Assembly: GCA_015143295.1 (NCBI GenBank)
Contig: CM026567.1
Coordinates: 13,968,416-14,032,415, forward strand
Source of the DNA: Tetracentron sinense
Lineage: Eukaryota; Streptophyta; Magnoliopsida; Trochodendrales; Trochodendraceae
Length of the DNA: 64,000 nt
Reading direction: 5' to 3'
The notes beneath the pieces were generated by a model. The model was not told the origin of the DNA. It saw only the letters and a list, made by a program, of their open reading frames with translations, and ran no database searches. The translations under genes were made by a program, and so were the position numbers. Shown here one piece after another: positions 660 through 58,586 of this stretch. Within the stretch, counting starts at the first letter, position 1. Every line of letters starts with the position of its first letter.

Positions 660-804
660 GTACGCAGTTGTAGTTTTATTTAATTATCCATGATTGTTTG
701 TTATGTATTATTCAATTGGGTACATATATGGCATGTTATATAGATATATACCTATATATATACGCTGTTGATGCATGGATTGACTCAACAAGCTATAATT
801 TAAG
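660..804 (+). other. Putative gag/pol intron, element L (145 nt)
   Basis: The donor is CAAG|GTACGC at 659/660. The acceptor is TTTAAG|GAAC at 804/805. Unspliced, gag stops 4 codons after the donor. Spliced, the split Gly codon (G|GA) leads in phase into TLLVNECL and the protease. The segment is AT-rich and has no coding character. The same donor and a matching in-phase acceptor occur in elements B and F. Confidence 0.6.
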
Positions 805-11763: not shown

Positions 11764-11778
11764 CAATGTTTGTGGCAA
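11764..11778 (+). repeat. 15-bp target-site duplication of LINE A, left copy
   Basis: CAATGTTTGTGGCAA at 11764-11778 recurs as CAATGTTTGTGGTAA at 17532-17546 with one mismatch. Joining the flanks restores the gag zinc-knuckle spacing. Confidence 0.93.
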
Positions 11779-11854
11779 AGGTTGGAACCAAAGCTTGGTC
11801 TTTTTACTGTCCCCAATTGAGGTGATTTTGAGGCGAAGTTTCAAGCTCGCAGTC

Positions 11855-17810: not shown

Positions 17811-17943
17811 GTACGCTCAAGTCAAATTGTTTAAGTTTATGAGATGTTGACTGTATGTGATGTATGTACATGCTTGTATAAACATGTTACTTATATGTTA
17901 TGAGTCTTTACGCTTTGTTTGACGTAGTAAGTATAATGTTCAG
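17811..17943 (+). other. Putative gag/pol intron, element B (133 nt)
   Basis: Donor CAAG|GTACGC at 17810/17811, acceptor AATGTTCAG|GCACC at 17943/17944. Unspliced, Gag gains about ten residues and stops. Spliced, the codon G|GC restores the frame into TLLISECLARV and the protease. Length, donor and phase agree with elements L and F. Confidence 0.68.
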
Positions 17944-21235: not shown

Positions 21236-21397
21236 ACTCATATGTTTCATAGATGTGGATTGGTTTTCATTAGAGTTGTGATTAAATAAATGATTATGGA
21301 TGATGCTGTTTTAAAATGATTTTGAATTATATCTTTTCAGTACTTGCATATGATGTTTTGCTCGTTATTATTATTGTTAGCTAGGAGCTTGCACTCG

Positions 21398-24035: not shown

Positions 24036-25104
24036 CTAAGAGGCTACATGACCATCTAAAGGTTCCTCGCTCCAAGATTCGGAATCAGGTAAGTCAACAG
24101 CCGAGACAGAAATGAGAGGAAGCGAAGGGGTACTGGTGCCTGAGGTAGGCAGATCCACAAGCACATGGGAAACAGGGTTTGGAATAGGAGCGGCCTCAAA
24201 GTGAGGGTCAAGATGTGGATCAGGTATTTTATCAAACACTTGGTTGCCAAAGTGGCAGACTGGGGAAGGTTTGTAAGTTGCGAACCCAGAGGTTCGGGGG
24301 TTGTCATCATCGAGGTCTGAAGACACAAAGGGGGTTTCAGAAGTTGGAGATTTGGCAGGGGATACGGGTTTGTCATCAAGATTGATAAAGACCCCTTCCG
24401 AAACGAAAGAAACAGAAGGAGGAAGCACCGGAGTTTTCGGAACAAAGATTTGCTTAGTAGTGCAGCAAGACACTAGGTGACCAAAGGACCAGCATTTAGA
24501 GCACTTCAAGGGTTTCCAGTCATAAACCACTCTCTGTTGGAAGAGGGTTCCATCCGGCATTACATCAATGTGGTTAGGAAGATCGTCTTTTGCAGAGATT
24601 TCAACACAGATTCTAGCAAATGAGAGGCGTTCTTTCCCCGCTGTAATTTTATCAGTGTACAAAGGATTACCGATCACACTAGCAAGATGACTGAGCGTCT
24701 TTTGGCCCCAGAGATGAAGCTGTAGGCCAGGAAGCTTAATCCAAAGAGGAAGAGAGGATATAAGTGGTTTTTCGAGCTTCAAAGAAGGACACCAAGATCT
24801 GAGGACTAAGGATTTTTTGTCAAAAAACCAGGGCCCATCTTCTAAGATTCGAATCTTGTCTTCTTCGCAGCTGAAGTCAAAGACAAATAGACCATTATCG
24901 AGGCCTAAAACCTCCAAATGCCCTTTTAAGGCCCAGATCTTCTGGAATACAGCATGTTGTTCGTTTCCCATGCACGAGATCAGGAGGAATGAAGCAGAGA
25001 GAAGGGTCATTTGAAGATGCCCTAGAGGAGTCAAAGAGAGAAGACCAGGGCTTCGGACTAGAGGGCGGAGGAGGTTCAGCTGGCCCAGGGCCAGCAGATG
25101 CCAT
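24036..25104 (-). pseudogene. LINE D ORF1 (DUF4283, CCHC), with internal deletion
   Basis: Start MASAGPGPAEPPPPSS at 25104. Compared with LINE A about 35 codons are missing after the GKRT motif, and the frame shifts there. The rest is a long open frame: WALKGHLEVLGLDNGLFVFDFSC, GPWFFDKKSLVLRSWCPS, LPLWIKLPGLQLHLWG, then knuckle CSKCWSFGHLVSCC and an acidic, Pro/Ser-rich tail ending at 24036. Confidence 0.8.
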
Positions 25105-26754: not shown

Positions 26755-26891
26755 GTATGAAACAATATCAAATTTTAAGCTGTGAATGTGAGCTATGGTA
26801 TAATGTGCCAATCGTGTATACTATATGCTACTTATACGTTATAGAGGTCCTTTCTTGAAATACCTTAATGTTAGTTATTTAATTTAACAAG
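26755..26891 (+). other. Degenerate gag/pol intron, element E
   Basis: Donor CAAG|GTATGA at 26754/26755. The expected acceptor AACAAG|CG at 26891/26892 lacks one base relative to the other copies, so splicing here would not restore the frame. I read this as decay of a sequence that was once equivalent to those in B, F and L. Confidence 0.5.
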
Positions 26892-32083: not shown

Positions 32084-33337
32084 CTAAATCTCTCTCAGCC
32101 GAAGGTCTGGATAAGAGGTTTTCAAAGTATTTGACGCCTGCTGAACTAATCTCATCTTCTTGGTTGAGGAGAATATCATTATCAGTAATTGAAGAGATTG
32201 ATTGAAGCCTCGTCGAGACGCAAGACTCTTATGAAAGAATTTAGTATTATTATCCCCCAAGGATAGCCACAAGAGTCTGGATTTTTGTCCGATAGAGGTT
32301 TCTTCTGATCTTGCTAGAAGGCAGTAATCCCGAAGAAAAATCTTTTCCACTGCAATAAGAGATTCGTCATGAGGATTAGAATGAAGCTGCATTTGGGCCA
32401 CCTCCAGAACTTGTTTAGATTGGGCCACTCGAGAGTTGAGATTGCTGAAGTTCTCTTTGCTCCATCCCCTGAGTCGAACTTTGAGGGCCTTAAGTTTCTG
32501 AACTAGTTGAAACATTGGGTTGCCCACCACTGGAGACTGCCAAACCTCAGAAACTATGGCCTTGAAATCAGGATGATCCGTCCAGAAATTGAAAAATTTA
32601 AAAGGTCTTTGTCCTCTTGGCGGTGGAGGTCTGAGTAGGACAATCATGGGGGAGTGATCAGAAATACCTGGAGAAAGGAAATCAGCCTCTGATCCAACAA
32701 AGCGAGTGCACCAGTTAATGTTAATGAGGTCTCTATCCAGTTTGCATTGAATACGACGAGTGCCGGAGGTTGAAGAATTGCTCCAAGTACAAAATAGACC
32801 TTTGCTCTTGATATCGAACATGCCCAGGTGATGGAGACAATCATTAAATGAACTAGAGTTGCGTGGTTGAAAAGTAGCTCCTCCAACCTTTTCCCCTTGA
32901 AAGCGAATAACATTAAAGTCTCCAAGCATAATCCACGGTTCTAGAGGACTATCTATGGAAAGGAGATCTTGCCAGAGATAGCGACGATCCGACTCACTGT
33001 TTGAAGCATAAATGAAGGAAGAGAGGAAAGTCACCGAAGAGTTGCATTCAGATACTTTACAGTGTATAAATTGGTCAGTGGCTTTGAGAACTTGGACATG
33101 ATAGTAGTTAGGATCCCATAACACCCAGATCCTGCCAAGAGTAGAGTGATCATAATTATCGGCATAACTCCAACCACGGGAAATATGCTTGAAAGTTTTC
33201 AGGAAATTGGCTTTACGAACTCTGGTTTCCAAAATCGCAAGCATGGATAGCTTGTGAACAGCAATAAGTTTTCTGATCTCCGCTTGCTTGAGGGGATCAT
33301 TGAGACTGTGAATGTTCCAGGCAGCAATCTTATTCAT
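32084..33337 (-). CDS. LINE I ORF2 N-terminal part: APE endonuclease
   Basis: 417 codons open from MNKIAAWNIHSLNDPLKQ, the best-kept endonuclease in the window. It nicks target DNA in active LINEs. Motifs: Asn in AAWNIHSL, Glu in AILETRVRK, Asp/Asn in MLGDFNVIRF, TWSNSSTSGTRRIQCKLDRD, and Ser-Asp-His in GISDHSPM. A coiled, basic linker follows (KLKALKVRLRGWSKENFSNL, SLGDNNTKFFHKSLASRRGF). The frame then drifts and ends before any RT motif, so this is a remnant and not a functional gene. Confidence 0.75.
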   Translation of the reverse strand: MNKIAAWNIHSLNDPLKQAEIRKLIAVHKLSMLAILETRVRKANFLKTFKHISRGWSYADNYDHSTLGRIWVLWDPNYYHVQVLKATDQFIHCKVSECNSSVTFLSSFIYASNSESDRRYLWQDLLSIDSPLEPWIMLGDFNVIRFQGEKVGGATFQPRNSSSFNDCLHHLGMFDIKSKGLFCTWSNSSTSGTRRIQCKLDRDLININWCTRFVGSEADFLSPGISDHSPMIVLLRPPPPRGQRPFKFFNFWTDHPDFKAIVSEVWQSPVVGNPMFQLVQKLKALKVRLRGWSKENFSNLNSRVAQSKQVLEVAQMQLHSNPHDESLIAVEKIFLRDYCLLARSEETSIGQKSRLLWLSLGDNNTKFFHKSLASRRGFNQSLQLLIMIFSSTKKMRLVQQASNTLKTSYPDLRLREI

Positions 33338-33346
33338 TTAAAATAT

Positions 33347-34556
33347 TTAGAGATTTGGGTGGTCCCCAACAGATAAATTATCACAAGCCTTACTAGCTAA
33401 CTCTGCACGCCGACTGGCCTGGGTAGAAGGAGGGGTCCCTCTAGTCTGGGAAGATTTCTTGAATGCCCCGCGACTTGATCGAGCTGTAGAGGGAGTGTGC
33501 AAAACAGAGCAAGAATCTTCATCGAGAGATGCAAGAGCATCAAACCTATTTGGACTGAGCATTGTATCACCATCCTGGGGAGCAACGATGGGTCCAAGAT
33601 AGGCATTCGCAGTTCCCACGTTATGATCAGGAATGAATTTTGGTTGAGCAGGGCTGAGAGATTGTAGAAGGCCCATGTCTTCCTCATGAGCTAAGTTGTC
33701 CTGGAGTTCCCAATCAATGAGAGGGTTACTGTGGAGAGCTTCATTTCGGGCTTTCAAAGAAGCAAATTGTTGAACAGGTGATGGGTGATATGAAGCGAAC
33801 CCAACTGCAACAGAAGAATCATCTTCGTCCCCATCACTATCTTCTGTAACATTGTGAACACTGGGGCTCACTTCCCTCAGCAACTCAGTATGAGAAGAAT
33901 GACCACCATATTCTCCCTTCTCCAGCAAGGTGGGACGAAAACCTGTTTGGTTTCACATTTAGCTTCAGAGTGTCCAAACAACACACATCTAGGGCATCGC
34001 AGAGGTTTCCAATCATATTGGACTTTCTGGTGAAAAATGGAGCCATCTGGTCTTTGCACATCAATCAGATCTGGAAGCTCATCCGTCGCGGAAATCTCCA
34101 CACACAAACGGGCGTAAGAGAGTCTACCTCTTTCAGCCGTGACTTTGTTTGAGAAAAGGGGTATACCGACGGCACTAGCCAAACGACTCAACAAACGTTT
34201 TCCCCACAGGTGAAGCTGAAGTCCAGGGAGTTTGATCCAGATAGGAAGAGAGGAAACCTGGGGTTTTTCAAGTTTCATCGATGGGGACCAAGGGCGAAGG
34301 ATTAGGGGTTTCTGGTTGAGGAACCATGGCCCGGAATCTAGAGTTCGAATCTTGTCTTCATCACAACTGAAATCGAAGACGAAAAGACCATTATCTAAAG
34401 AAGAGATTTCCAAATGACCTTTTGGAGCCCAAGCTTTGAGGACAAAATTCTTCAAATGCTGAAAATAGGGTTTTGGTCCAAGGACAAAACCCACAAGAGC
34501 ACAAGACCATCGAGCAATATCGTTATCTACTTCAATCTGGGGATAAGAAACAAGAT
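33347..34556 (-). pseudogene. LINE I ORF1 (DUF4283, CCHC), 5'-truncated
   Basis: Lacks the N-terminal ~50 residues. DUF4283 is well kept (KAWAPKGHLEISSLDNGLFVF; GPWFLNQKPLILRPWSPS; LPIWIKLPGLQLHLWGKR), then YDWKPLRCPRCVLFGHSEAKC, a CX2CX4HX4C knuckle. A single frame change near 33920 leads into an acidic, Ser-rich C-terminal half ending at 33347. Confidence 0.83.
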
Positions 34557-35938
34557 TCTTGCAAATTCGGGAGTTGCAAGTAGCGGATGCCGAGTTAATT
34601 GCTTTCCGTGATAAGGCGGTTAGCAAAGGAAGCGATGAGTTCACCACGAACGGTGATGGGGCAATCACATTCAAGGCTAGACTTTGTGTCCCAGCCGATG
34701 TAGAACTCCGAAGAGAGAATTTGGATAAAACCCATCGTCCTAAGTACACGGTACACCAAGGAGGAACCAAAATGTATCGAAACCTCAAGGGATTCTTCTG
34801 GTGCTGGAACATGAAGCGAGAAGTAGCGGAATATGTGTCCAGGTGCTTGGTGTGCCAGGAAGTGAAGACAAAGCACATGAGGCCATCAGGTCTTTTGCAG
34901 CCCCTCCCTATTCCCGAGTGGAGGTGGGAGAACATTTTCATGGATTTCATTGTGGGGTTGCCACGGATTGATAGAAACTCCAATGCTATACGGTTCGTGG
35001 TTGACAGACTGACAAAGTCCGCCCATTTCTTACCATATCGAACTACATTCAATTCAAATCAGCTAGCAGCATTGTATATCAAAGAGATAGTCTCGTTGCA
35101 CGGGGTGCCAGTGAGCATCATGTCAGATCGAGATACGAGATTCACCTCCAGGTTCTGGAAGAGTTTCCAGAACACCATAGGTTCCCGTTTGGACTTTAGC
35201 ACGACTCTCCATCCATAGACTGACAGGTAAACCAAGAGAGTAAATCAAGTCATAGAGGACATACTCCGGGCTTGTATGCTAGACTTCAAAGGTTGTTGGG
35301 AAGACCACTTACCATTGGTTGAATTCGCTTACAATAACAATTATCAAGCGAGCATTCAAATGACGCCTTTTGAGGCTTTGTACGGGAGAAGTTGTAGAAC
35401 CCCTTTGTATTGGGATGAAGTCAGGGAAAGGAAAGTATTGGCCCTGAATTGATTGAGTAGATTGCTGATAGGGTTAAGTTTATCTAAGAGAGGTTGAAGA
35501 CCGCATAGGATCGATAGAAGAGCTATGCCGACAACCGAATGAGAGATCTCGAATTTCGAGTTGGCGAATTTGTTTCTCAAGATCTCACCAACCAAGGGTG
35601 TTATGAGATACAGGAAGAGAGGCAAGCTCAGTCCAAGATACATGGGTCTGTTCGAGATCATCGCTAGAGTCAGTGAGATGGCTTACCGGGTTGCTCTACC
35701 CGCTCATATGCTAACGGTCCATAATGTATTCCATGATTCTATGCTTCGGAAATATATCTCGGACACATCCCACGTCATTGAACTTGATCTAGTTGAAATC
35801 CGAGAAGATCTCACATTAGTAGAGCAACTAACGCAGATATTGGATAGGCGAGATCAAGTCCTGTGCAATAAGACCATTCCATTGGTCCTGGTGAGATGGC
35901 AACATCATTCAGCAGAAGAGGCTAACGTGGGAACATGA
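34557..35938 (+). pseudogene. pol: Pol of element E, second part: integrase
   Basis: The zinc-binding HHCC domain (HRPKYTVHQGG; CLVCQEVKTKH) is near 34730-34870. The catalytic core follows: MDFIVGLPRI and VVDRLTKSAHF (first Asp), SIMSDRDTRF (second Asp). The Glu motif is ruined: two stops and Lys in place of the catalytic Glu (TKRVNQVIED, about 35229). Frame breaks lie near 35450-35560. The tail carries GKLSPRYMGLFEI and the chromodomain-like IPLVLVRWQHHSAEEA before a frameshift at 35920. Confidence 0.87.
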
Positions 35939-40814: not shown

Positions 40815-42027
40815 ATGAGGCGTGGCATCCTAGGTAGAGGGTATCAGACCAGAGGGAACAGAGGAGATATTCTGATTGGAGATGAGCAGCCAGACTTGAC
40901 TCAAATCCTTGGTGCTATAGTAGCGACTATGGCTTTTACTTGCAGACAGGGCTAATACTCCTATTACGGCTGCTGCAGTTACACCTCCTCCACATAGAAT
41001 ACAAGCAAGAGTTGAGGCTTTTCGGAGAATGAGACCTCTCATCTTCTATGGTGGTATAGACCCGATGGTGGCAGAAGCTTGGGTTATGCAGCTAGAGAAG
41101 TTGTTTGCAGTTTTGATGCCTACGGAGGCAGAAAGAGTATCGTGGGCCGCCTTTTTGATGGAAGGTGAGCAGACCACTAGTGGAGATCTGCTATCAGGAC
41201 TCGATACTTGACTCGAATGGGTCAAGAGTGGTCATGCGGAGAGTTTCTTGACGTGTCCTACAAGAAATACTTTCCAGTTGGAGTACATGAGAAGAAGGAG
41301 ATGGAGTTCATCACCTTGGAGCAAGGTAATATGTCTGTGGCCGAGTATGAGGCTAAGTTCTCGGCATTGTCTCGCTTTGCTCCACACATGATAGCCACAG
41401 AGGCTATGAAAGCCCGAAAGTTTGAAAGAGGTTTGAAGGGCTATTTGAGAGAGAAAGTATCGTTGTTTCGGCACAAGACATATGCAGAGGTGAACGACAA
41501 GGCCCAGTTAGCTGAGACTAACTCAGAGGACTTCTTCATGAGGAGTGACAATGGCCTGGTGAGAGGCATGGATAGACGCCAATTTATTGGCCCAGTGCCA
41601 CTAGAGCAAAGGGTCAAGTCTGCCCCTTACCAAACTGCTATGTCTACTTAGGTTCCGAGGCTTCCATGGGTACCACAGATCCCTTGGTCTAATACTGCGT
41701 AGACCACACAATATGGACAGCCTGCATCTTCTACCTCTGACGTGTGTAGCCATTGTGGGAGAAGGCATAGGAGCCGGGATTGCCGTGCACTCATGGGTAC
41801 GTGTTTTCACTGTGGTGATCGGAGACATCAGTTCAGAGAGTGTCCACGCCGCTAGTTGCCATTGCAGTCGCAAGGGAATAGGCCCCCAGCTCGACAGGCC
41901 ACACAACAGGGGTCTTCTCAGACTTACAGACCACTACAGCCCACCCAGCTGCCTCAACAGGCGAGTCAGGGCAGAGCCTTCGCCTTATCTGGGAGAAACA
42001 TACATGCATCTGAGGATGTTGTGCAAG
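40815..42027 (+). pseudogene. gag: Gag of element G
   Basis: ATG at 40815 (MRRGILGRGYQTRGN). Stops and a frameshift lie near 40950. The middle is open (GQEWSCGEFLDVSYKKYFPVGVHEKKEMEFITLEQGNMSV, 41208-41651). Zinc-knuckle region CSHCGRRHRSRDCRALMGTCFHCGDRRHQFREC at about 41740-41845, where the second knuckle keeps CX2CX4HX4C. The final part carries SEDVVQ at the splice donor (42027). Inactive, but it could formerly have supplied particles. Confidence 0.83.
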
Positions 42028-42160
42028 GTACGCTCAAGTCAAAGTTGTTAAACTATAAATTATCGATAGATGTGATATATGTTGCTATGTGTGTAAGAAC
42101 ATGCTACTTATATTCTATGGTTGTTATACGTTGCTTGACTTAGTTATGAATAATAAAGTG
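42028..42160 (+). other. Truncated gag/pol intron, element G
   Basis: Starts with the family donor CAAG|GTACGC and resembles the element B intron for about 130 nt. It then passes directly into the pre-polypurine-tract sequence, so exon 2 (all of pol) is missing from near the intron end. Confidence 0.55.
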
Positions 42161-42218
42161 TGAAAAAGTATCCCCGCTTGATTTAATGTAGTCCTAATTT
42201 CCCTGATGAAATTCTTAT

Positions 42219-42231
42219 AAAGGGGGGATAA
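42219..42231 (+). promoter_or_regulatory. Polypurine tract of element G
   Basis: AAAGGGGGGATAA directly before TGTAGAGCCCC. Confidence 0.85.
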
Positions 42232-44225
42232 TGTAGAGCCCCGAAATTTAGGTTCACTGTTCATGTGAATAGTGTGTGAATAGTGTTGTGAATAGTGCCT
42301 TCAAGACCTAAAGCCTTAATAAAATTGTGGGTTCATGTTTTATAATGAAAGGAGGTTTCGAATAAGTCAAAATATGAATGGAAAGTGTTTTTGAAGGTTA
42401 GGGATAAATGAAAAATAAGAGTATAACATATTCCAAGTGTCAAAGAAAATGATACCTAAACATACCCTCAACTTTAAAGAGCTCTAGAATTCTCACCGCT
42501 GATCAGAATCGAGTGATTTTTGAATTTTTAGAAAGGTATTGAAACCTTCTTTAAGTTTCATGTGTATCACTTTTTCAGATTTTGAGTCGAGGTTGGGTTA
42601 AACGTCAGATTTCCGAAAACAAGTCTGCTGAAAATCTGGGCTACTGAAATCTATTTTCGGACCAGTCAGCTTTATTGGCAATTTGATCCATGAATAAGGA
42701 AAAATTAGAAATTTTGCAAAACATGAAAGTTGTTCCCCTTTGAAATACAAATCCAACGCAAGTTGAATCATCAAAATCCGATAAGTGAGTCAAAAATTAT
42801 GGTCAAAATACCAAAGCGGGAAAAACCCAGGCTTGTCATAGTATCACTAGTCGACGAGTGAGCTTCCCAAGTTGACAAGTGAGCGTCGCTCGTCGACAAG
42901 TCAGCCCTGAAATGTCAAAAAGGACCCTGTAACAGCCTAGAACTCTTCCACTGACCTTGGGAGATATTTTGGGATATTTTCTTAAGATATTTTGGGATTT
43001 TGGGCAACCTTTAGGCTATAACTAGGGCCTGATTTTTGTGGGTAAGAGTTACTAAACCCTTGAATCAATTGAGAGAGAGATTAAAGAAGAAGGAAAGCTC
43101 TGTGAGTTTCAAAGTGTTCGTGTGTTTTCTCCCGAGCTCAAGTGAGGTCCCAACCTTGTTCTAGAAGCTCAAGCTTCATTCCTTGAGTGTTCTAAAGCTC
43201 AAAATTTATCTTCAAGGTGATTCCATAAGCTTGGAATTTCTCCAAAGAAATTCTGTGCATGTTCTTGAAGAAGGAGGTTTTCAAACCCAGATTTTCCCAA
43301 AGCTTCAACCAAGCTTGATTCAGTCCACAGAAGTATAAGAAAACTTCCTTTTAAGGTAGATACACTTTACTAGATTTTAATTCCATAAATCATATTATGT
43401 ATGTAATTCAAGATAAAAACCTTTGATTTGTGCTATGAACTAGCAGGAAATCCTACTAGTTAACTTGTGATGATGCTATGCTTTAAACCAAAGAATAAAG
43501 TGAGTAGAAAATTATGTTTTAGATATTTTTGATGTTATGATGATTCAGAGATGAAAAGCATGTTAAAAGACTTAAGTTTTGGGAAAAAACGAATAGGAAA
43601 ACTGTAGAACCCCGGAACTTGGGATCACTGTAGAGTGAATAGTGCTACGAATAGTGTCTATGAATGGTGTATGTAAAGGCCAAGTTTTCCATGTGACCTT
43701 GGTGTTTGTTTGAATGGAAATGAGGTGTCTCATTTTAAAATGATTGTTATGTTGTTAGTTTGGTAGATGCAACATAAGGTATGATGTATGTGGGTTTGTG
43801 AACCAAAACAAGAGTATAAAATACTCTTAAGTGTCAAAGAGGGTGGATTTCTTACCATTCCCTCAACTTGTGGGATCTATAGTTTCGTTGTATCTCATCA
43901 AAATAAAGTGATTATTGAACCATTGGAAAGGTATTCAACCCCTCTTTAAACTTCATGTTTATCGCTTTTCCAGATTATGATTAGAAGTTAAGTCAAATGT
44001 GGGATTTCCGAATGGTGGTCTGCTGTCAGTTCAACAGTCATGTTGGACTAGTCCACTTGTGGGCCCATTTGGACCACTCAAATATCAGAATTGGGATTCG
44101 TGCAAAACATAAAAGTTGTTCCCCTTTCAAAGAAGAATCCAACGTAAGTTGAATCATCAAAATCAGAGCACCGAGTCAAAAGTTATGGCTAAAATACTGA
44201 AGTGCATTCTGCAACACTAGTCAAT

Positions 44226-44403: not shown

Positions 44404-45064
44404 GTGCCTTAGGGTTTTAGAAACCCTTAGAGCATAATTTTTAGAGAGATTTGAGAGGAGAAGAAGGAGGAAAGTTAGGGTTTGCACAAGCTTGAAGATC
44501 AAATCTTCCCTTCTTTGGTTTTTTTCAACAAAGAACTCCTCACTTGTACAAAACCTTTGGAATCAAATTCATTTATTTCACCAAGGTAGAACACTCTACT
44601 AACTTGCCTTGCTATATTTCATTGATGTGTACTTTGTTTTCTATGGTTTAAACAAAGGGTTTTGATGAAAGTTAGGATGTTTTGGCCATATTTGTAATTC
44701 CTATATTTTAAGCAAGATACAAAGCATGATTTTGATAAGATAAATTGTAGATACTGTCGCGACCCAAAACCCACCCTAGGAGTTAGAGTGAACTTTGGAC
44801 GACTAATCATGGATTTCATGACTTGTTTGACAAACCATCCTGCAAAAACCCATAGAGCATATACAATAGAGGATATAAACAGCGGAAACATACTCTAACA
44901 TAACGTAGCGGAAGTCTAAACAAACCTCTATGTATATACATACGTAAATCCAAGTTACACAAAAGGAATACATAAGAAAGTGCGGACAGACCCGCCCAAA
45001 TACATGAATGTATATCTCTCATCTCACCCACAGCTAATCCACTCAGAATCTAACACCGCCTACT

Positions 45065-45215
45065 AATAACCCTCTATGGGAGGTTCCTCCAAAGGCTCCT
45101 CAACGTACTCCTCTTCCACCCATGGACCAGGAGCACAAACATCAAATGGAGCAGCAGCTCCCTCAGAACCTGCCGACATAAGAAGTACGGCTGAGCATGG
45201 AATACTCAGCGGGTA
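45065..45215 (-). CDS. Short LTR reading frame with PWVEEEY motif (element F 3' LTR)
   Basis: An open frame follows an in-frame TAG and reads through the hairpin. A start at MSAGSEGAAAPFDVCAPGPW is possible, then VEEEYVEEPLEEPPIEGY and stop. It matches solo LTR 4 closely. In the 5' LTR copy (52748-52898) the motif Trp codon is TGA, so at least one of the two F copies is dead. Confidence 0.4.
45191..45209 (-). ncRNA. Conserved LTR leader hairpin (F 3' LTR)
   Basis: The plus-strand sequence CTGAGCATGGAATACTCAG is the reverse complement of the common hairpin. The same element lies at 52874-52892 in the 5' LTR. Confidence 0.55.
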
Positions 45216-45479
45216 CTAAGCACTAACCAACAGTCATAGCATACAGATAGCATACATAAAGCAGGAAACAATTCAAGCATATAAAGCAGGAATAATTCAT
45301 ATCATGACAATAAAGTAAAGGAGTATATAATCATGCTTAAATTCATAAAAGCCGATAAAACCCTTGAAAACACCGTGCACTTGACTTGACTGAAAATACC
45401 ATTTCCGTGCTTGAAATCTTGTCATGTTTGTCTTATCTTATCGTATCATGCGTGTCATGTGTGTCATGCCATGTCATGC

Positions 45480-45740
45480 TTGCTTGGGAAAGTAAACTAC
45501 TTGTGAGGGAAGGGAGACCCTTCTTCCTAAATACCCATGCTTGTCATGCCGTGTATCATGCTTGCTTGTTCGGAAAAGAAATCTACTTGTGAGGGAAGGG
45601 AGACCCTTCTTCCTAAAATGCTCATGCCGTGTCCTTTCACTTGTGACTTGTGAGATGCACTTGTGAGGGAAGGGAAACCCTTCTTATGATATGTATGTAC
45701 TTGCGAGGGAAGGGAGACCCTTCTTATGATAATGCATGAT
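45480..45740 (-). repeat. Hairpin minisatellite in F 3' LTR leader
   Basis: Four units of CTTGTGAGGGAAGGGAGACCCTTCTT or close variants; GAAGGG pairs with CCCTTC. The 5' LTR copy is at 53165-53420. Confidence 0.82.
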
Positions 45741-46652
45741 TGACTTGTCCTTGCCATGAACGAGGTAAAACATATCGTAGGATATGTCCCACCTCTAACC
45801 ATGTTTTGAAAACCTCGATAAATGTCGTCATGCATGCCGTGCTCGTGGGAACCGTGTACATACTTGCATTCAAATTTACAGATGACATTTGGTTAATTTC
45901 ACAACACATATAGCATCAAAGATTGAGCAATTCAATATTCATGGCATTTAGGGAAAGCAGGAAACACACTTTCATAGGCCCTAGTAATATTCAGAATTTC
46001 TTAGGTATGCATTTCCTAATTCACAGCTCACTTTATTCACCTTGGCATTTCATCAAACATGGTGTGTTCATTATGGATTTACCCTACAACATGCTTTTCT
46101 AGATGGGTTTTTCTCAAATCATACGTGTACGTTCATTATTGGAACAATGCCCTTCCCCATTCGTTCATCACACACAACCATTGGCATCCAATTGCCCATT
46201 CCATCTCCATTCACCATTCACCATTTACCATTCTCCATTCGCCATTCATCCATCTCGTAGCACATGTATCAATGAAAGAAAATCAAAAGAAGTAGAGGGA
46301 GAAGAGGAACTATAACTAGGAGGGTAGTAAAAGTACCGACCTTGACAGATGAGGAAGAAACCCTCTTCCAAACGACTGTAAAGTGCTGCCCTAGTTTGGA
46401 TCACGAGTTCCACGAATGCTTGAGCCGAAATCTTGAAGAAAACGGCTTGAGGTTGATCTAGGGTTTCAAAACCCCTTTGATTTCTCTCTAACAGGAAACC
46501 CTAGGTTGGAATCGCCTTCTCCCCTTTCTCCTATTCTCTCAAACTCTCTAAGTGTCGAATGATGCCCTAAAGGCTCGGGTTAAACTCTTAAGGTAAGAGT
46601 GAACTGACAAAAGACCATAACACCCTTACTAAATTTCTGTCAAAACACGAGT

Positions 46653-47040
46653 GTCGAACTCGTGGTGCTGTGAACAGTGCCAACTCGTGGTGCTGTGAAC
46701 AGTGCCAACCCGTTGTCCGTTGTCAAGGGTGTCGAACCCGTTGTCACGTTGTGTTGTGCCTAGAGCTGAACACGTTGTCTGTCGTGAACAGTGCCGAGCC
46801 AGTCGTCACTTCGTGTCGTGCATAGTGCTGAGCCCGTAGTCCGTTGTCTTATATACCACGTGCCCGTGGTGAGTTGTACAACGTACCCGTTGTGAGCTGC
46901 ACAACATGCCCGTGGTGAGTCGTACAACGTACCCGTGGTGAGCTGCACAACGTGCCCGTTGTGAACTGTACAACGGATGCACACAACATTCGTTATCAAC
47001 GTACGTTGTCTGAGCACGTTATCAGAGTACGACGTCAGAG
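46653..47040 (-). repeat. CGTTGT/ACAACG palindrome array in F LTR
   Basis: A long array in which CCCGTTGT, CCCGTGGT and ACAACG elements alternate, for example CCGTTGT...ACAACGG near 46949-46973. Motif differs from the GATCGATC arrays but the position between conserved box and promoter is the same. Second copy at 54333-54722. Confidence 0.82.
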
Positions 47041-47283
47041 CACGTCCTTAGTGCATAACCGAGCTACGATTTCCTACAGGTTCAGACTGTTTTGGCCATA
47101 TCTTTTGACTCGTTCATCCGATTTTGACGATTCAACATGCGTTGTGTTCGTACTTTGAAAAGGAATATTTCTGACGTTTCAAAATTTCCAATTTCTTCCT
47201 TATTTATTAATTATACCACTTAAAAAGGCAGAATGACAATGGAAATGTCATGTATTAAGCATGAAAAGGTCTGGGGCTCTACA

Positions 47284-47297
47284 TCCTCCCCCCCTTA
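47284..47297 (-). promoter_or_regulatory. Polypurine tract of element F
   Basis: Plus-strand TCCTCCCCCCCTTA, i.e. TAAGGGGGGGAGGA on the element strand, directly before the LTR start. Confidence 0.88.
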
Positions 47298-47383
47298 CAA
47301 AAATTTCGTCCTCGAAATTCAGACAATACTAACATTACAAATCAAAACAGAATTACAAGTCATACACAAAACCAATACAAAAC

Positions 47384-50300
47384 TCATTCAATTAATTCTG
47401 GGTACTTTGCTTTGACTTCGGCTTCACGCTCCCATGTAGCTTCTTCCCGAGCATGGTGTTGCCATTGCACAAGAACCAAAGGGATTGTCTTGTTGCGAAG
47501 CACCTGATTTCTTCGATCCAAAATCTGAACCGGCTTTTCAATCAAGGTGAGATCATCTCGAATTTCCAACGGTTCCAAGTCTATGACATGCGAAGGATCC
47601 GTAATGTACTTCCGAAGCATAGACACATGGAAGACGTTGTGAACTGTGGCCATGTGAGGTGGAAGAGCTACACGATAAGCAACTTCACCAACCCGTGTGA
47701 TAATCTCAAAAGGCCCAACATACCGAGGACTGAGCTTGCCTCGCTTTCCAAATCTCATGATCCCTTTGCTAGGAGATACTTTCACAAAAACTTGATCCCC
47801 TACTTGAAATTTCAAGTCCCTACGGCGTGTGTCCGCATAACTTTTCTGGCGATCTTGAGCGGCTTTCAATCGATCCCGGATGATCTTAACTGTGTTTGCA
47901 GTTTGCTCAATCAATTCCGGACCAAGTACTTTCCTTTCTCCTACCTCATCCCAATAGAGAGGAGACCTACAACTTCGCCCATACAAGGCCTCAAATTGTG
48001 CCATTTGGATACTTGCATGATAGCTGTTATTATAGGCGAATTCAACCAAAGGCAAGTGTTCTTCCCAACTGCCTCTGAAATCTAACATACAAGCCCGAAG
48101 CATGTCTTCAATGACTTGATTTACTCTCTCGGTTTGTCCATCCGTCTGTGGATGAAAAGCAGTGCTGAAATCAAGTCGGGAACCCATAGCTTCCTGATAA
48201 CTCTTCCAGAATCTTGATGTGAATCTCGGATCCCGATCTGAGACAATACTAACTGGCACCCCGTGTAGCCTAACAACTTCCTTGATATATAGTGCGGCTA
48301 ACTGACTAGAGTTGAAGGTAGTACGGTAGGGTAAGAAATGAGCGGACTTCGTCAAACGATCCACTACTACCCATATCGCATCTGAGCCCCTTGCCGTCTT
48401 TGGCAAGCCAACTATGAAATCCATGGATATGTTCTCCCATTTCCACTCGGGAATCGGAAGGGACTGTAATAGACCTGCGGGCCGCATGTGTTCTGCTTTT
48501 ACCTGTTGACACACCAAGCACCGTGCTACATACTCTGCAACCTCCCTCTTCATATTCCGCCACCAAAAGCGACTCTTGAGGTTCCGGTACATCTTTATAC
48601 CCCCTGGATGCACTGTGTACTTCGAACGATGTGCCTCATCCATGATCTCTCGTCGAAGATCCGCGTTGGCCGGAACACTTCCCTTGAATGTGATAGCACC
48701 CCGACTAGTGAGAGAGAAGTCCTCACTACCCTTAGCAACTTCCTTGTCCCGATAAGCCAACAATTCCGCATCCATGGCTTGATATTCTTAGATCAAATCT
48801 ATAATGTACGGCCGAACCGTAACATTTGCCAAGATAGGACCATGGATAGACTTATTCACACTGATGTCCAGATTTGCCAAATCTTCTAGTAGCTTCCATT
48901 CTTGAACTAACATGTGTGCTAACAACCCTTGAGGTTGTCTACTCAAAGCATCAGCCACTACATTTGCTTTACCCGGGTGGTATTGAATGGTGCAATCATA
49001 GTCCTTCAAAAATTCCATCCAACGCCGTTGCCTTAGATTCAACTCTTTTTGGGAAAAGAGATACTTGAGGCTCTTGTGATCAGTGAACACATAGAACTCC
49101 ACCCCATAAAGGTAATGACGCCAAATCTTAAGTGCAAACACGACCGCTGTAAGCTCCAAGTCGTGCGTGGGATAATTCTTGTCATGCTCCTTCAACTGCC
49201 TCGATGCATAGGCAATGACTTTCTTGTGCTGCATGAGTACACACCCAAGTCCAACGTGTGAGGCATCACTATACACCTCATACCCATAAGGTCCAGATGG
49301 CACAGTAAGGACCGGAGCTGTAGTAAGCCTCTTCTTCAGTTCCGTGAAACTGATCTCGCACTTATCACTCCATACAAACTTGGCGTTCTTCCTTGTCAGG
49401 TAAGTGAGAGGTGCTGCAAGGCTAGAGAAACCCTCTACGAATCTCCTGTAGTAGCCTGCCAACCCAAGAAAGCTGCGTATCTCCGTGACACTCTTGGGCC
49501 TCGCCCAACTCATGACTGCCTCTATCTTCCTTGGATCCACCGAGATACCTTCTGCGGAAACAACGTGGCCTAGGAATGCCACCTCTTCCAACCAAAACTC
49601 ACACTTGCTAAGTTTGGCGTATAGCTTGTGTTCTCTTAGCATTTCCAAAGCAAGGCATAGGTCGCGTGTGTGATCTTCCCGTGTCTGGGAATAGACCGAA
49701 ATGTCGTCAACAAATACAATCACGCACCTATCAAGATATGGCCGGAACACCCGGTTCATCAAATCCATGAAGGCTGCCGGCGCGTTCGTGAGTCCAAAAG
49801 GCATCACCAAGAACTCGTAGTGCCCATACCGAGTCCTGAAAGCAGTTTTGGGAACATCTTCCGCCTTAATCTTCAACTGGTGATAACCCGATCGAGGATC
49901 TATCTTCGAGAAAAATCTCGCACCCTTCAACTGATCGAACAAGTCATCAATCCTAGGCAAGGGATACCTATTCTTTATAGTGACTTTGTTCAATTGCCTG
50001 TAATCGACGCACATCCGCATCGAGCCATCTTTCTTCTTAACAAACAACACCGGGGCACCCCACGGTGAGACACTTGGTCGAATGAAGCCAAGGCCTTGCA
50101 ATTCCTCCAACTGAGTCTTTAACTCTTTGAGTTCAATAGGGGCCATTCTATACGGAGCCCTGAAAACAGGAGCTGTGCCTGGTGCAAGCTCGATCACAAA
50201 CTCGGTCTCCCTGTCTAGAGGCAATCCTGGCAACTCCTCTGGAAATACATACAGGAACTCACTCACAACCGGAATAGTCGATGAGTCCTTTGCCTCGGGG

Positions 50301-50703
50301 TTAGCTAAGCTCAACGCCGCAAAACTAGCAATAGATCTACTTCTCAACCCGCAAAAGTGGAATGGTTTTCCTTCTACTGGCTTGAAGAGTACCATTTTCT
50401 CCAAGCAAGCTACATGCCCATGATGTGCTGCTAACCAATCCATTCCCAATATAACATCAAAGTCTTGGAATCCAAGGACGATAAGATCAACCGCCAACTC
50501 GTGGCTTCCAACTTGGACCACACTATTTCCATACACTTTATCTGTCAATACTGTTTTGCCGAGAGGAGTCGAAATGGCTAACTCCAGTTCTAGCTGACTT
50601 GGCTCTACAGAAAAGCCTTCTGAAAAACTCGGCGAGACAAACGAATGAGTAGACCCGGTATCAATCAACACTCGGGCCAAACACTCATTGACTAGTAGGG
50701 TTC
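47384..50703 (-). pseudogene. pol: Pol of element F: protease, RT, RNase H, integrase (one stop)
   Basis: Exon 2 of the putative spliced gag-pol. Protease [18 protein letters not shown] with [24 protein letters not shown] and catalytic FVDDISVY; RNase H with [24 protein letters not shown] and [10 protein letters not shown]; a stop TAA (48788-48790) in the linker DLI*EYQAM. Integrase follows with HRSKYTVHPGG / CLVCQQVKAEH, MDFIVGLPK and VVDRLTKSAHF, VSDRDPRF and HPQTDGQTERVNQ (all three acidic residues kept). The tail GKLSPRYVGPFEI and IPLVLVQWQHHAREEATWE looks like a degenerate chromodomain. A single substitution keeps it from being open across about 1,100 codons. Confidence 0.93.
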
Positions 50704-50851
50704 CTGAAATTTTAACTAGCAGAGTTAATCCATGCATCAACGGTGTATACATGTAGGTACATATACATATCTAACATGCCAAGTACATACACAATCAATT
50801 AATACTTAACAGTTCAATTCACGGATAATTAAATGAGCTACAACTGCGTAC
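50704..50851 (-). other. Putative gag/pol intron, element F (148 nt)
   Basis: On the element strand, donor CAAG|GTACGC (exon ends at 50852) and acceptor AATTTCAG|GAACC (exon 2 starts at 50703). Unspliced, Gag stops after GTQL. Spliced, G|GA leads in phase into TLLVNECL. As this is the youngest copy, it is the best evidence that the arrangement is functional and not decay. Confidence 0.72.
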
Positions 50852-52077
50852 CTTGCACTACATCGTCAGATGCAAGTGCATCACCCTCTGTCAAGGCAAA
50901 AACTCGCCCCTGGTTTACCTGGCGAGACTGAGGCGTAGACAGGGTAGTCTGAGATGACGCCTGGTATGATCCTGCTGGGCGTGCTGGGGGCCTACTACCC
51001 TGAGACTAGCCTGGTAAATGCCGACTAGGGCAATCCCTGATCATGTGGCCCTGGCGACCGCAATGATAGCATCCACCAGATGATCTTCGGCAATCTCCTG
51101 CCGGATGCCTTTTGTCGCATGAAGTGCAGACCTCATATGTGTAGGCCGGAGGGGCAGAAGGGTATACCTCGCTGCCTGAGGTGTAACTGGCCGTGGGGCC
51201 GGAAGAGCCTGAGGTCGAGGTGCTTGTGGCACGTACTACCGTGGAGCTGGAGACGCATAAGAAGGCCTCATCGGTGGTGCTGGCCACGCATACTGATAAC
51301 GAGCCCGCCTCTCTGGAGGTGCTGAACTACTAGCTTGGCCTCTCGCCAACTCCCTCTTCTTGGACACGGTCTCTGAATTGGCCTCTACCAATAAAGCCTT
51401 GTCTACTACCTCAGGGTAGGTAGTATGCCTGAAAACTCCATAATCACATCCTTGAGCCCTTGCTCAAATCTTCTTGCCTTCATTGCCTCAGTAGCAACCA
51501 TATGAGGCGCAAATCTCGACAACTTCGAGAACTTGGCCTCGTATTGTGCCACCGACATCAAACCTTGCTCAAGGTTGATGAATTCTCTCTCTTTCTTTTC
51601 CCGTGCTCCAATCGGAAAATACTTCTTGTAAAAAGTATCCTTGAACTCCTCCCAAGTCCAAGGTAGACCCTGCATGATCAAATCTCTCGTCCTCAGTGCG
51701 GACAACCACCAATGGTGGGCTTCACTCTCTAGCATGAAAGCTGCCCATGCTACTCTCTCCTCCTCTGTAGGTGAGAGGACCGCAAAGATCTTCTCCACCT
51801 GAAGGATCCATGCCTCCGCAGCGAGAGGGTCCACACTCCCATGGAATGGTGGAGGCCTCAATCTCCTGAATGCCTCAACTCCCGCGGTACGATGTACTGG
51901 AGCTGCGGGCGGTGGAGTAGGTGCCGCCGACGATGGTATAGCTTGCCGAGCCGCCAGTATGGCGAGTGTCTCAGCAATAGAGCCTAAGACCTGAGAGAGG
52001 TCCGGCTGCTCATCCTCATCTCTGGAAGAAGATGAAGCTCTGGTGTGTGATCCGCGACCCCGTGTGCCCCGCCTCAT
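50852..52077 (-). pseudogene. gag: Gag of element F (two frameshifts)
   Basis: ATG at 52077 (MRRGTRGRGSHTRASSSSRD). Matrix/capsid-like part is open for 224 codons (EAFRRLRPPPFHGS, WTWEEFKDTFYKKYFP, QYEAKFSKLSRFAPHMVA). A frameshift near 51440 interrupts the FRHATYAEVVDK segment. A second break lies in the Pro-rich linker near 51200-51240. Zinc region CTSCDKRHPAGDC and CYHCGRQGHMIRDC at about 51125-51030. It ends SDDVVQ at the splice donor. Confidence 0.9.
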
Positions 52078-52421
52078 GAATAAAGTCCTGAGAACAATAG
52101 CACCACATGAGTCTAACTTGAAACCACAGTTTATTTCAATGTTATTTCACAATAATTCAATTTGTATTAGTTGTATAATACTACTATACATCACATCAAA
52201 TCATCAGAACATTCATCATAATATACTTATACTTTAGTGTTCTAGCGCACCTAGGACTCGTACTTGGCTGAAACAACCATTTTGACTAAGACTAAAGTTT
52301 AGTCTTACACTTGGATTAAGACTCTCTTCCGACTTACTTTCTTCCTAACTTGTTTCCTGACATATGCTCTTGTCAAGCCGTGGTATAAGATTCTAAGTGC
52401 CCCTAGAGACCTAAAGCCTAA

Positions 52422-52433
52422 GCTCTGATACCA
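52422..52433 (-). promoter_or_regulatory. Primer-binding site of element F
   Basis: Plus-strand GCTCTGATACCA, i.e. TGGTATCAGAGC on the element strand, four bases from the LTR end. The leader to the gag ATG is 344 bp. Confidence 0.95.
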
Positions 52434-52437
52434 CTTC

Positions 52438-54965
52438 TGTCGCGACCCAAAACCCACCCTAGGAGTTAGAGTGAACTTTGGACGACTAATCATGGATTTC
52501 ATGACTTGCTTGACAAACCATCCCGCAAAAACCCACAGAGCATATACAATAGAGGATATAAACAGTGGAAACATACTCTAACATAACGCATCGGAAGTCT
52601 AAACAAACCTCTATGTATATACATACGTAAATCCAAGTTACACAAAAGGAATACATAAGAAAGTGCGGACAGACCCGCCCAAATACATGAATGTATATCT
52701 CTCATCTCACCCACAGCTAATCCACTCAGAATCTAACACCACCTACTAATAACCCTCTATGGGAGGTTCCTCCAAAGGCTCCTCAACGTACTCCTCTTCC
52801 ACTCATGGACCAGGAGCACAAACATCAAATGGAGCAGCAGCTCCCTCAGAACCTGCCGACATAAGAAGTACGGCTGAGCATGGAATACTCAGCGGGTACT
52901 AAGCACTAACCAACAGTCATAGCATACAGATAGCATACATAAAGCAGGAAACAATTCAAGCATATAAAGCAGGAATAATTCATATCTTGACAATAAAGTA
53001 AAGGAGTATATAATCATGCTTAAATTCATAAAAGCCGATAAAACCCTTGAAAACACCGTGCACTTGACTTGACTGAAAATACCATTTCCGTGCTTGAAAT
53101 CTTGTCATGTTTGTCTTATCTTATCGTATCATGCGTGTCATGTGTGTCATGCCATGTCATGCTTGCTTGGGAAAGTAAACTACTTGTGAGAGAAGGGAGA
53201 CCCTTCTTCCTAAATGCCCATGCTTGTCATGCCGTGTATCATGCTTGCTTGTTCTGAAAAGAAATCTACTTGTGAGGGAAGGGAGACCCTTCTTCCTAAA
53301 ATGCTCATGCCGTGTCCTTTCACTTGTGACTTGTGAGATGCACTTGTGAGGGAAGGGAAACCCTTCTTATGATATGTATGTACTTGCGAGGGAAGGGAGA
53401 CCCTTCTTATGATAATGCATGATTGACTTGTCCTTGCCATGAGCGAGGTAAAACATATCGTAGGATATGTCCCACCTCTAACCATGTTTTGAAAACCTCA
53501 ATAAATGTCGCCATGCATGCCGTGCTCGTGGGAACCGTGTACATACTTACATTCAAATTTACAGATGACATTTGGTTAATTTCACAACACATATAGCATC
53601 AAAGATTGAGCAATTCAATATTCATGGCATTTAGGGAAAGCAGGAAACACACTATCATAGGCCCTAGTAATATTCAGAATTTCTTAGGTATGCATTTCCT
53701 AATTCACAGCTCACTTTATTCACCTTGGCATTTCATCAAACATGGTGTGTTCATTATGGATTTACCCTACAACATGCTTTTCTAGATGAGTTTTTCTCAA
53801 ATCATACGTGTACGTTCATTATTGGAACAATGCCCTTCCCCATTCGTTCATCACACACAACCATTGGCATCCAATCGCCCATTCCATCTCTATTCACCAT
53901 TCACCATTTACCATTCTCCATTCACCGTTCATCCACTCGTAGCACATGTATCAATGAAAGAAAATCAAAAGAAGTAGAGGGAGAAGAGGAACTATAACTA
54001 GGAGGGTAGTAAAAGTACCGACCTTGACAGATGAGGAAGAAACCCTCTTCCAAACGACTGTAAAGTGCTGCCCTAGTTTGGATCACGAGTTCCACGAATG
54101 CTTGAGCCGAAATCTTGAAGAAAACGGCTTGAGGTTGATCTAGGGTTTCAAAACCCCTTTGATTTCTCTCCAACAGGAAACCCTAGGTTGGAATCGCCTT
54201 CTCCCCTTTCTCCTATTCTCTCAAACTCTCTAAGTGTCAAATGATGCCCTAAAGGCTCGGGTTAAACTCTTTAGGTAAGAGTGAACTGACAAAAGACCAT
54301 AACACCCTTACTAAATTTCTGTCAAAACACGAGTGTCGAACTCGTGGTGCTGTGAACAGTGCCAACTCGTGGTGCTGTGAACAGTGCCAACCCGTTGTCC
54401 GTTGTCAAGGGTGTCGAACCCGTTATCACGTTGTGTTGTGCCTAGAGCTGAACACGTTGTCCGTCGTGAATAGTGCTGAGCCCGTCGTCACTTCGTGTCG
54501 TGCATAGTGCTGAGCCCGTAGTCCGTTGTCTTATGTACCACGTGCCCGTGGTGAGTTGTACAATCTACCCGTTGTGAGCTGCACAACATGCCCGTGGTGA
54601 GTCGTACAACGTACCCGTGGTGAGCTGCACAACGTGCCCGTTGTGAACTGTACAACGGATGCACACAGCATTCGTTATCAGCATACGTTGTCTGAGCACG
54701 TTATCAGAGTACGACGTCAGAGCACGTCCTCAGTGCATAACCGAGCTACGATTTCCTACAGGTTCAGACTGTTTTGGCCATATCTTTTGACTCGTTCATC
54801 CGATTTTGACGATTCAACTTGCGTTGTGTTCGTACTTCGAAAAAGAATATTTATGACGTTTCAAAATTTCCAATTTCTTCCTTATTTATTAATTATACCA
54901 CTTAAAAAGGCAGAATGACAACGAAAATGTCATGTATTAAGCATGAAAAGGTCTGGGGCTCTACA
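52438..54965 (-). repeat. 5' LTR of element F
   Basis: 2,528 bp, co-linear with the 3' LTR. Conserved box 54777-54833, palindrome array 54333-54722, hairpin minisatellite 53165-53420, leader hairpin 52874-52892. The acidic frame has a stop in place of the motif Trp. Confidence 0.96.
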
Positions 54966-55429
54966 GATACACTCTACTACTTACCATGTATTATTCCTCT
55001 TAAGAAAAACCATGATTGAAGTATGTTCTTGGGTTGATGGATGTTGATTTTATACTTAGATGTAAACTAGTACTATTATGCACTCTATGTGTTTGGTTAA
55101 ATGCCTCTAAGGGATCTTATGTTTAAATATATTCCTAAGTTGCTATGAGATGTAAGTTATCACTAGTATTGAGTTCTATGAATATGATGTTATTTCTACA
55201 AGGTTCCTAAATCCACATGATGCTCACACATACTATATGCACTCTATGTTCACAAATATCGCATGATTAGATGATTTCTCACAAGAAAAGTGTTCTATCA
55301 AGTTCATAAGTTAAGATTGTGGCTCAAAAGGGTTTTTGCTCGAAATTAAGGTTTCCAAGTATGGTTTTGCTAAAAGAGGTTTTTCTCAAAAGTGGATTCG
55401 CTCAAAGAATGATTTTCGGGATTCAAGGG

Positions 55430-57338: not shown

Positions 57339-57549
57339 GGATAGGGAGAGACTAATACATGTATTTTGATGAGCGAGCATGTTCGCTCTTTATTTTGGTT
57401 TATTGTATTAAACTTGGATATAGTATGTATAGAATATTTTGTATTCTGCTTCCGCTATAGCATGCCTTATATATTGTATAGGATCGTTTGGTAATGAGTT
57501 CATGACGCCAAAGTATCCTAACTCTTAGGGGGTATTTTGGGTCACGACA

Positions 57550-58586
57550 AACTCTATGTAACTTATTCTAATATTTTGAAAAGTAGGCAATTTATGAAGT
57601 TCATTGTAGAAATCGGGGAAACGAGGACTAAACTAAACGAAACGAATCCTAAAAGTTAGGATATGTCGAAACAAATGCGTCGGAGCAAATTGCGTCAAAA
57701 AAGGAGTCCTTGTTGAGATTTTGTCCACAACTTTAGGTTGCCTTTTTTAGTAAGTTTGGTAACTTATGAGCCTTGTTGCCCAAATTGTAAATTGAGACCT
57801 AAAAAGATCGAAACCAATTCTAAAACTTAAGATTGATTTAAAAAAATGCTTTTGAGCAAACCGCGTCAAAAAAATAGTCCCTATTGAGCTTCTGTGCTAA
57901 ACTCTAAGTTACTTTTCTTAGTAGTTTGAAACTTAAACAACTTATTATCTCAATTGCTCAAATCGGAAAACGAGGACTAAACTGAACGAAACCAATTCTA
58001 AAACTTAGGATAGTTTGAAACAAATGCGTTGTAGCAAACCGCATCAAAGGAGTCCCAATTAGGATTCTGTGCGTAGCTCTAGGTTTCCTTCTTTTTATGT
58101 AGTTTGAAACTTAGGCGACTTATGAACCTCGTTGCCCAAATCCAGCAAACAAGGTCAAAATTCAATGAAACAAATTCTAAAGTTAGGCTAGATTGAAACA
58201 AATGCGTCGTAGCAGACCGCGTCGAACAAACAGTCCTACTTTGGATTCTTCCAGAAGCAATAGGTTAATTTTTTTTTGTAGTTTGAATCTTAGGCAGCTT
58301 ATGAACCTCGTTACACAAATTGGACAAACGAGGAATAAACTAAACGAAACCAATTCTAAAAGTTAGGATAGGTTGAAATAAATGTGTCGAAGCAGACCAC
58401 GTCGATAAAGGAGTCTTTGTTGGAATTTTGTGGGCGTCTCTAGGTTACTTTTTTTTAGAAATTTGACACTTAGGCAACTTATGAACTTCGTTGCCCAAAT
58501 TGGGCAAACGAAGTCTAAATTAAGCGAAAACATTCTAAAAGTTAAAATAAATTGAAATAAATGCGTTCGAGCAAACCCCGTCCACT
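57550..58586. repeat. ~178-bp tandem satellite array, about 5.8 units
   Basis: The marker AAATGCG (or variants) recurs at 57673, 57844, 58022, 58200, 58380 and 58559, giving spacings of 171, 178, 178, 180 and 179. Each unit contains CCAAATT...AAACGAGG, AATTCTAAAAGTTAGGATA, GAGCAAACCGCGTC and TAGGTTACTTTTTT. Units differ by roughly 15-25 % by eye. No reading frame. The length is typical of plant centromeric or pericentromeric satellites; this one I do not recognise. Confidence 0.88.

Follow-up and report, generated by a model that had tools for sequence, protein, structure and literature searches.

A probable spliceosomal intron between Gag and protease in a high-copy family of plant chromoviruses

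How does a retrotransposon make its polymerase when stops in all three reading frames separate gag from the protease? The question is raised by a 64,000-nucleotide stretch of Tetracentron sinense DNA (contig CM026567.1, positions 13,968,416 to 14,032,415; hereafter the window), which holds five copies (L, B, E, F and G) of one gypsy family of long terminal repeat (LTR) elements, and in which an earlier note had proposed an in-frame spliceosomal intron between gag and pol. Judging from DNA sequence, it is highly likely that a phase-1 GT-AG intron splits a glycine codon at the Gag-protease boundary of this high-copy plant chromovirus and that the element RNA is spliced in the plant. The observation as a whole stands, with corrections that concern the stop distances, the homology of the introns, the acceptor of E, the missing pol of G and the damage to F. 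Beyond the window, a spliceosomal-type, in-phase gag-pol intron is supported by kept acceptors, by a drifting interior and by exact intronless copies, several of which have LTR ends and target duplications.

In the window, all five copies share the donor CAAG/GTAYG (the slash marks the exon-intron boundary) after the Gag residues DDVVQ, at 660 (L), 17811 (B), 26755 (E), 50851 (F, minus strand) and 42028 (G), as had been claimed: a degenerate donor pattern of 27 nt, with as many as three mismatches allowed, finds five matches, all of them without mismatch (0.00 expected, 100 shuffles). The donor reads CAAG/GTACG in every copy except E (GTATG). The proposed acceptor also holds for L, B and F, where an AG is placed such that splicing would bring Gag and protease into one frame through a glycine codon (GGA or GGC) split in phase 1; in the same three copies the A of a TTRAC branch-like site (TTGAC in L and B, TTAAC in F) lies 22 nt before the intron ends. 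Four of the five copies (L, B, E and F) keep the beginning of the protease exon. Reading E as having an intact acceptor, with the AG one base later, was rejected: exon 2 of E keeps its start, but the AG that should precede it is lost. G+C content is 28-33% in the introns versus 44-57% in the flanking exons. With a plant splice-site matrix, the donors rank 1-4 among the 65-112 GTs per region, and the acceptors rank first among the AGs 60-400 nt downstream in B and F and second of 21 in L. The introns had been described as different in sequence and length; their lengths do differ, but the sequences turn out to be diverged homologues, not unrelated stretches, with pairwise mismatch from 0.21 (L-F) to 0.56 (E-F) and 5 to 22 gap columns. 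In copy G (window 40833-42260) the sequence leaves the intron close to the acceptor and continues towards the polypurine-tract/LTR region, with pol missing; the copy looks like a Gag-only deletion derivative.

Are these junctions kept elsewhere in the 1.16-Gb genome, in which the family numbers thousands of pattern matches? An alignment of the junctions across the family, a check that the earlier note had suggested, was made on two sets of copies and finds the ends mostly kept. The close set, 40 copies scored of 3701 first-look candidates and chosen for their resemblance to a segment of F with the intron inside it, has the GT in 40/40 and the AG in 38/40 copies, with intron lengths of 146-150 nt. 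In 30 of these copies the intron interior is 3.5% variable, compared with 1.2-2.3% at codon positions 1-2 and 3.6-6.7% at position 3. The diverged set derives from the 30 one-mismatch rows of donor type that come first in listing order, 24 of which have exon 2 in place; together with L, B, E and F from the window these make 28 copies, among which the GT was part of the selection and the AG is kept in 24, with intron lengths of 131-162 nt (mixed modulo 3: 17, 6 and 5 copies) and a YTRAY site 15-50 nt from the intron end in 24/28. Among copies of the close set whose frame is open for at least 100 codons before the donor and at least 250 after the acceptor, the AG is kept in 13 of 14. The claim that the intron sequence varies while the junctions are kept is thus borne out, the interior drifting roughly like third codon positions and the acceptor being kept in most diverged copies, which is the behaviour of a GT-AG intron whose ends are kept as its interior diverges. 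The sequences thus place homologous introns at one and the same base across diverged subfamilies and show most of their ends to be kept. Separately, the acceptor has decayed several times with the donor intact, in two close copies and in L100, L114 and E of the diverged set; its context is one that we take to be prone to methylation-linked change in plants.

The strongest evidence for splicing comes from copies that lack exactly the intron. A 23-nt pattern spanning the spliced junction was searched genome-wide, with the reversed pattern as control: 40 matches are exact and 6779 have at most two mismatches, a tolerance at which the control gives 0 and 1. Among the matches listed, the one-mismatch rows are nearly all donor-bearing, and F-type donors fall at two mismatches. 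Intronless copies make up 39 of the 40 exact matches; the other, L058, was rejected as an intronless copy and is a donor variant, and with it falls the intron loss that a tree had suggested in the E clade. For 38 of the 39, some intron-bearing copy aligns up to the junction on both sides, the gap being 148 nt (34 copies), 133 nt (two), 150 nt or 136 nt, and for L078 no intron-bearing reference has alignments that meet at the junction. Identity to an intron-bearing copy is at least 92% in both flanks of 20/39 copies and at least 85% in 31/39; over 1.5 kb per side, the first 10 intronless copies are 90.5-96.9% identical to their best two references. In seven of these 10 the two LTR ends are present with a matching pair of 5-bp target duplications, a different one in each copy, and of the other three one has both ends with flanks that differ, one the 3' end only and one neither. 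A longer spliced pattern finds 92 places at up to two mismatches, 45 of them exact (control 2). Frames open for at least 100 codons lie on both sides of the junction in 18 of the 40 spliced-pattern copies (L058 included). A tree built from 67 intron-bearing and 39 intronless copies (106 in all) implies a minimum of 16 switches between presence and absence of the intron, a figure that is not a count of splicing events, the sampling being uneven with intron-bearing copies drawn near F or from one donor type; a single clade of the 39 intronless copies is rejected (p-AU 2e-87). DNA copies without exactly the intron, several of them bounded by LTR ends and target duplications, make it very probable that spliced RNA of the element occurs and serves as a template for reverse transcription.

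What would splicing do for the element? In L, B, E and F the pol frame differs from the gag frame and all three frames are stopped between gag and protease, which is not a single open reading frame (ORF) layout; counting these four, 23 of the 28 copies of the diverged set carry intron stops in all three frames. The earlier note placed the stop met by unspliced RNA 4-11 codons on, which fits L (4), F (4) and B (10) and fails for E (34 codons) and G (38). A Gag ORF of 416-420 aa that ends 4 codons past the donor is found in 6/40 close copies, and a diverged Gag on a 942-nt public contig (P0196) likewise ends shortly after DDVVQGT. Comparison of pol among L, B, E and F gives proportions of nonsynonymous differences (pN) of 0.075-0.149 and of synonymous differences (pS) of 0.48-0.78, which shows pol to have been long under purifying selection.

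The intronless copies and the frames suggest the following scheme. Full-length element RNA would be spliced in the plant and the spliced RNA sometimes reverse transcribed and integrated, a step for which the case is strong. Unspliced RNA, given the stop a short way beyond the donor, would yield Gag, and spliced RNA, from its frames, a Gag-Pol fusion, such that incomplete splicing could set the excess of Gag over Pol. Unspliced RNA may also be the main packaged genome, since intron-bearing copies far outnumber intronless ones. We tentatively extend this to a switch in which host splicing chooses between Gag and Gag-Pol, the reverse of the arrangement in the Ty1/copia element EVADE, and in which spliced RNA returns to the genome again and again; the resulting elements would have a single ORF, and some would then have multiplied without the intron, giving the E-like and TTCG-type groups described below. 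This fuller picture is possible but on balance doubtful. If it is true, the family alternates between two forms, one split and regulated by splicing, the other fused.

Several observations weigh against the intron interpretation or its simplest form. The diverged set holds near-identical pairs (e.g. L102/L103, L109/L111, L110/L112), making the independent cases fewer than 28, and the splice-site scores given by the plant matrix are moderate. The AG is lost in 2/40 close and 4/28 diverged copies, and both AG-less close copies have long open frames (435 and 439 codons upstream, at least 534 and 221 downstream), which speaks against a strict requirement for this acceptor. Finally, the pol frame is open 23-33 codons into the intron in 39/40 close copies, and the intron-side extension of pol in F contains an ATG, so that internal initiation is possible there. 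This last point favours the alternative that survives best, namely that the intron is spliced but serves mainly for something other than the Gag:Gag-Pol ratio: Pol may start internally in F-type copies, where its frame is open upstream into the intron, with splicing acting in RNA export or the intron being a tolerated passenger. In 22 of the 28 diverged copies, however, the open pol frame reaches no more than 11 codons back from the acceptor, and an intron-initiated Pol is therefore not a shared design; nor does such a role sit easily with splice signals that are mostly kept while the intron drifts. We consider it unlikely.

A second alternative, which we regard as very improbable, has the intron lately inserted in some copies, the intronless ones being the ancestral state. 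In its favour, related public proteins are uninterrupted, and absence of the intron is therefore probably ancestral at the deepest level. The longer spliced pattern also adds 14 loci (L138-L151) that include E-like (GCGCTTT, L138-L143) and TTCG-type (L144-L149) intronless copies; these groups, which match intron-bearing sequence locally at about 65-82%, look like families of their own, and may be either old single-ORF lineages or amplified products of intron loss. Late insertion is nevertheless hard to reconcile with homologous introns at the same base in subfamilies whose synonymous change is near saturation, or with intronless copies that lie scattered among intron-bearing ones, over half of them (20/39) closely matching intron-bearing copies on both sides as described above. 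Least credible of all is that Gag and Pol are joined by programmed frameshift, stop-codon readthrough or ribosomal bypass across a spacer of 131-162 nt: recoding is a usual strategy of LTR elements and the frames of gag and pol do differ in L, B, E and F, but frameshift and bypass are rejected by the stops in all three frames and by a spacer length that varies modulo 3, and DNA copies without exactly the spacer are not predicted by recoding. A dead spacer insertion is likewise rejected by the mostly kept ends and by purifying selection on pol.

A spliced gag-pol intron would have partial precedents in plants. A 2025 review states that plant LTR retrotransposons are generally without introns, Ogre and EVADE being among the notable exceptions (PMC12786077). 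In Ogre, as here, an intron lies between two parts of the polyprotein; it is spliced from a subset of transcripts only, allowing translation of the whole polyprotein (PMC6317226). The two Ogre ORFs are on average 274 bp apart and splicing has been shown, while in the Ty1/copia element Bianca the distance is 172 bp (PMC6317226). Bianca resembles the family of F in having two separated ORFs, with a special expression strategy suggested, but it belongs to the copia superfamily, and the passage on it does not state splicing (PMC6317226). Ogre is a non-chromovirus (Tat) with its intron between protease and reverse transcriptase (PMC6317226), whereas the family of F has a chromodomain and an intron before the protease and is thus outside Ogre/Tat. 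The Ty1/copia elements EVADE and BARE are alike in that host splicing helps to set the Gag:Pol ratio, but there splicing gives a short Gag-only RNA and the full-length RNA gives Gag-Pol, so that the family of F would work in reverse (PMC12786077). Direct RNA reads in sunflower detect splicing in two Copia elements, with Tekay absent from the expressed set (PMC7730604), and in Diaspora splice sites are predicted upstream of gag and around its start codon (PMC1142308). For an intron in a chromovirus, we found no report among the best-ranked titles and abstracts listed by a literature search that covers few subscription papers. Outside plants, Pol expression in foamy viruses depends on spliced RNA, Pol being made without Gag; here, unlike in foamy viruses, the spliced product would be a Gag-Pol fusion. 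The family would therefore add a chromovirus case to Ogre and EVADE and make the question of the Gag:Pol ratio in plant gypsy elements directly testable. Its intronless copies would record reverse transcription of spliced RNA, a natural counter of spliced-template use, and its splice junction would provide a clean expression marker for a high-copy element.

To which chromoviruses does the family belong? The ORFs of F match PF03732, PF08284, PF00078, PF17917, PF17921, PF24626 and PF00385, in the order gag capsid, protease, reverse transcriptase, RNase H, integrase and C-terminal chromodomain, which is that of a plant chromovirus (Ty3/gypsy). A search with pol returned 7957 matches, of which the best 120 were used, and one with the protease region returned 76, giving together 194 proteins; those that are named are from plants. 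Identity over the protease region is at most 52% among the matches listed, and so no close copy of the family of F is among them; nor is a clade-labelled reference among the matches listed from either search. Of 95 proteins that extend 40 residues or more ahead of the protease motif, 70 have exactly 32 residues between an RVFAL-like anchor and the catalytic D; among the other 25, inspection shows the same spacing in several that lack a match to the anchor pattern, and a different one in some. The family of F also has 32 residues when its exons are counted without the intron. The primer binding site (PBS) of F, TGGTATCAGAGC, is presumably of the tRNA-Met type. As in Tekay (Del) chromoviruses, F has a chromodomain, the same domain order and a similar LTR and element size (PMC3605345): its LTRs measure 2.53 kb and the element 10.2 kb, while Tekay elements of beet have undisturbed LTRs of 2.56-2.74 kb and lengths of 8.4-11.6 kb, the Reina and CRM rows compared being shorter (PMC3605345 Table 1). 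Tekay is further described as having the chromodomain upstream of the polypurine tract and a PBS complementary to tRNA-Met (PMC3605345). In F the chromodomain ORF ends at 47384, upstream of the polypurine tract and unlike CRM; this place is common to Galadriel and in part to Reina too. The PBS lies 4 nt from the LTR in F versus up to 3 nt in the beet elements (PMC3605345). Taken together, chromodomain place, LTR and element size and primer site are consistent with Tekay membership. In beet chromoviruses including the Tekay family Bongo, gag and pol form one continuous ORF, which the family of F interrupts with an intron (PMC3605345). In IMG/VR, no relative of the pol ORF was confirmed and the donor pattern had no match; a 21-nt pattern gave three bacterial matches, which we take as chance.

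The window itself is DNA rich in transposable elements, whose kinds and relatives point to a plant origin. Element F is a complete LTR insertion on the minus strand (44755-54965) flanked by the 5-bp target duplication GTATC (Table 1). It is a recent copy, given that its LTRs are 98.3% identical to each other, and also a damaged one, since the gag frame is broken upstream of the intron and pol is broken between the ORF ending at 48788 and the ORF starting at 48775. The break in gag lies near 51406, with stops and another frame change further downstream.

Table 1. Coordinates of the gag-pol introns and of the parts of element F in the window (slash, exon-intron boundary)
Feature	Position	Strand	Details
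L intron	660..804	+	145 nt; TTGAC branch-like site; acceptor TTTAAG/GA
B intron	17811..17943	+	133 nt; TTGAC branch-like site; acceptor GTTCAG/GC
E intron remnant	26755..26890	+	136 nt; donor GTATGA; acceptor AG lost
G donor and most of intron after gag	42028..42150 (end approximate)	+	acceptor and pol absent
F gag-pol intron	50704..50851	-	148 nt; CAAG/GTACGC ... TTTCAG/GA; phase 1
F gag exon, ATG 52077 to donor	50852..52077	-	capsid PF03732 in ORF 51406-52077
F pol exon start, protease-reverse transcriptase-RNase H, open frame	48788..50703	-	
F integrase and chromodomain, separate ORF after frame break	47384..48775	-	PF17921, PF24626, PF00385
F 5' LTR (TGTAGAGCC...GCGACA)	52438..54965	-	target duplication GTATC at 54966-54970
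F PBS TGGTATCAGAGC	52433-52422	-	4 nt from 5' LTR
F 3' LTR	44755..47283	-	98.3% identical to 5' LTR; target duplication GTATC at 44750-44754
F polypurine tract	47284-47296		adjoins 3' LTR

The 40 kb beside the window contain no donor match at up to six mismatches and no tblastn match. Within the window, an extra gag fragment at 11036-11764 shows 58% identity to P0195 over 269 alignment columns and is without the donor motif; it overlaps an ORF (11306-12454) that also matches DUF4283. ORFs with DUF4283 and with an endonuclease domain at 24036-25034, 32084-33337 and 33877-35052 resemble remnants of plant long interspersed nuclear elements, and two self-similar segments (20521-21236 and 57549-58582) have the appearance of tandem-repeat arrays.
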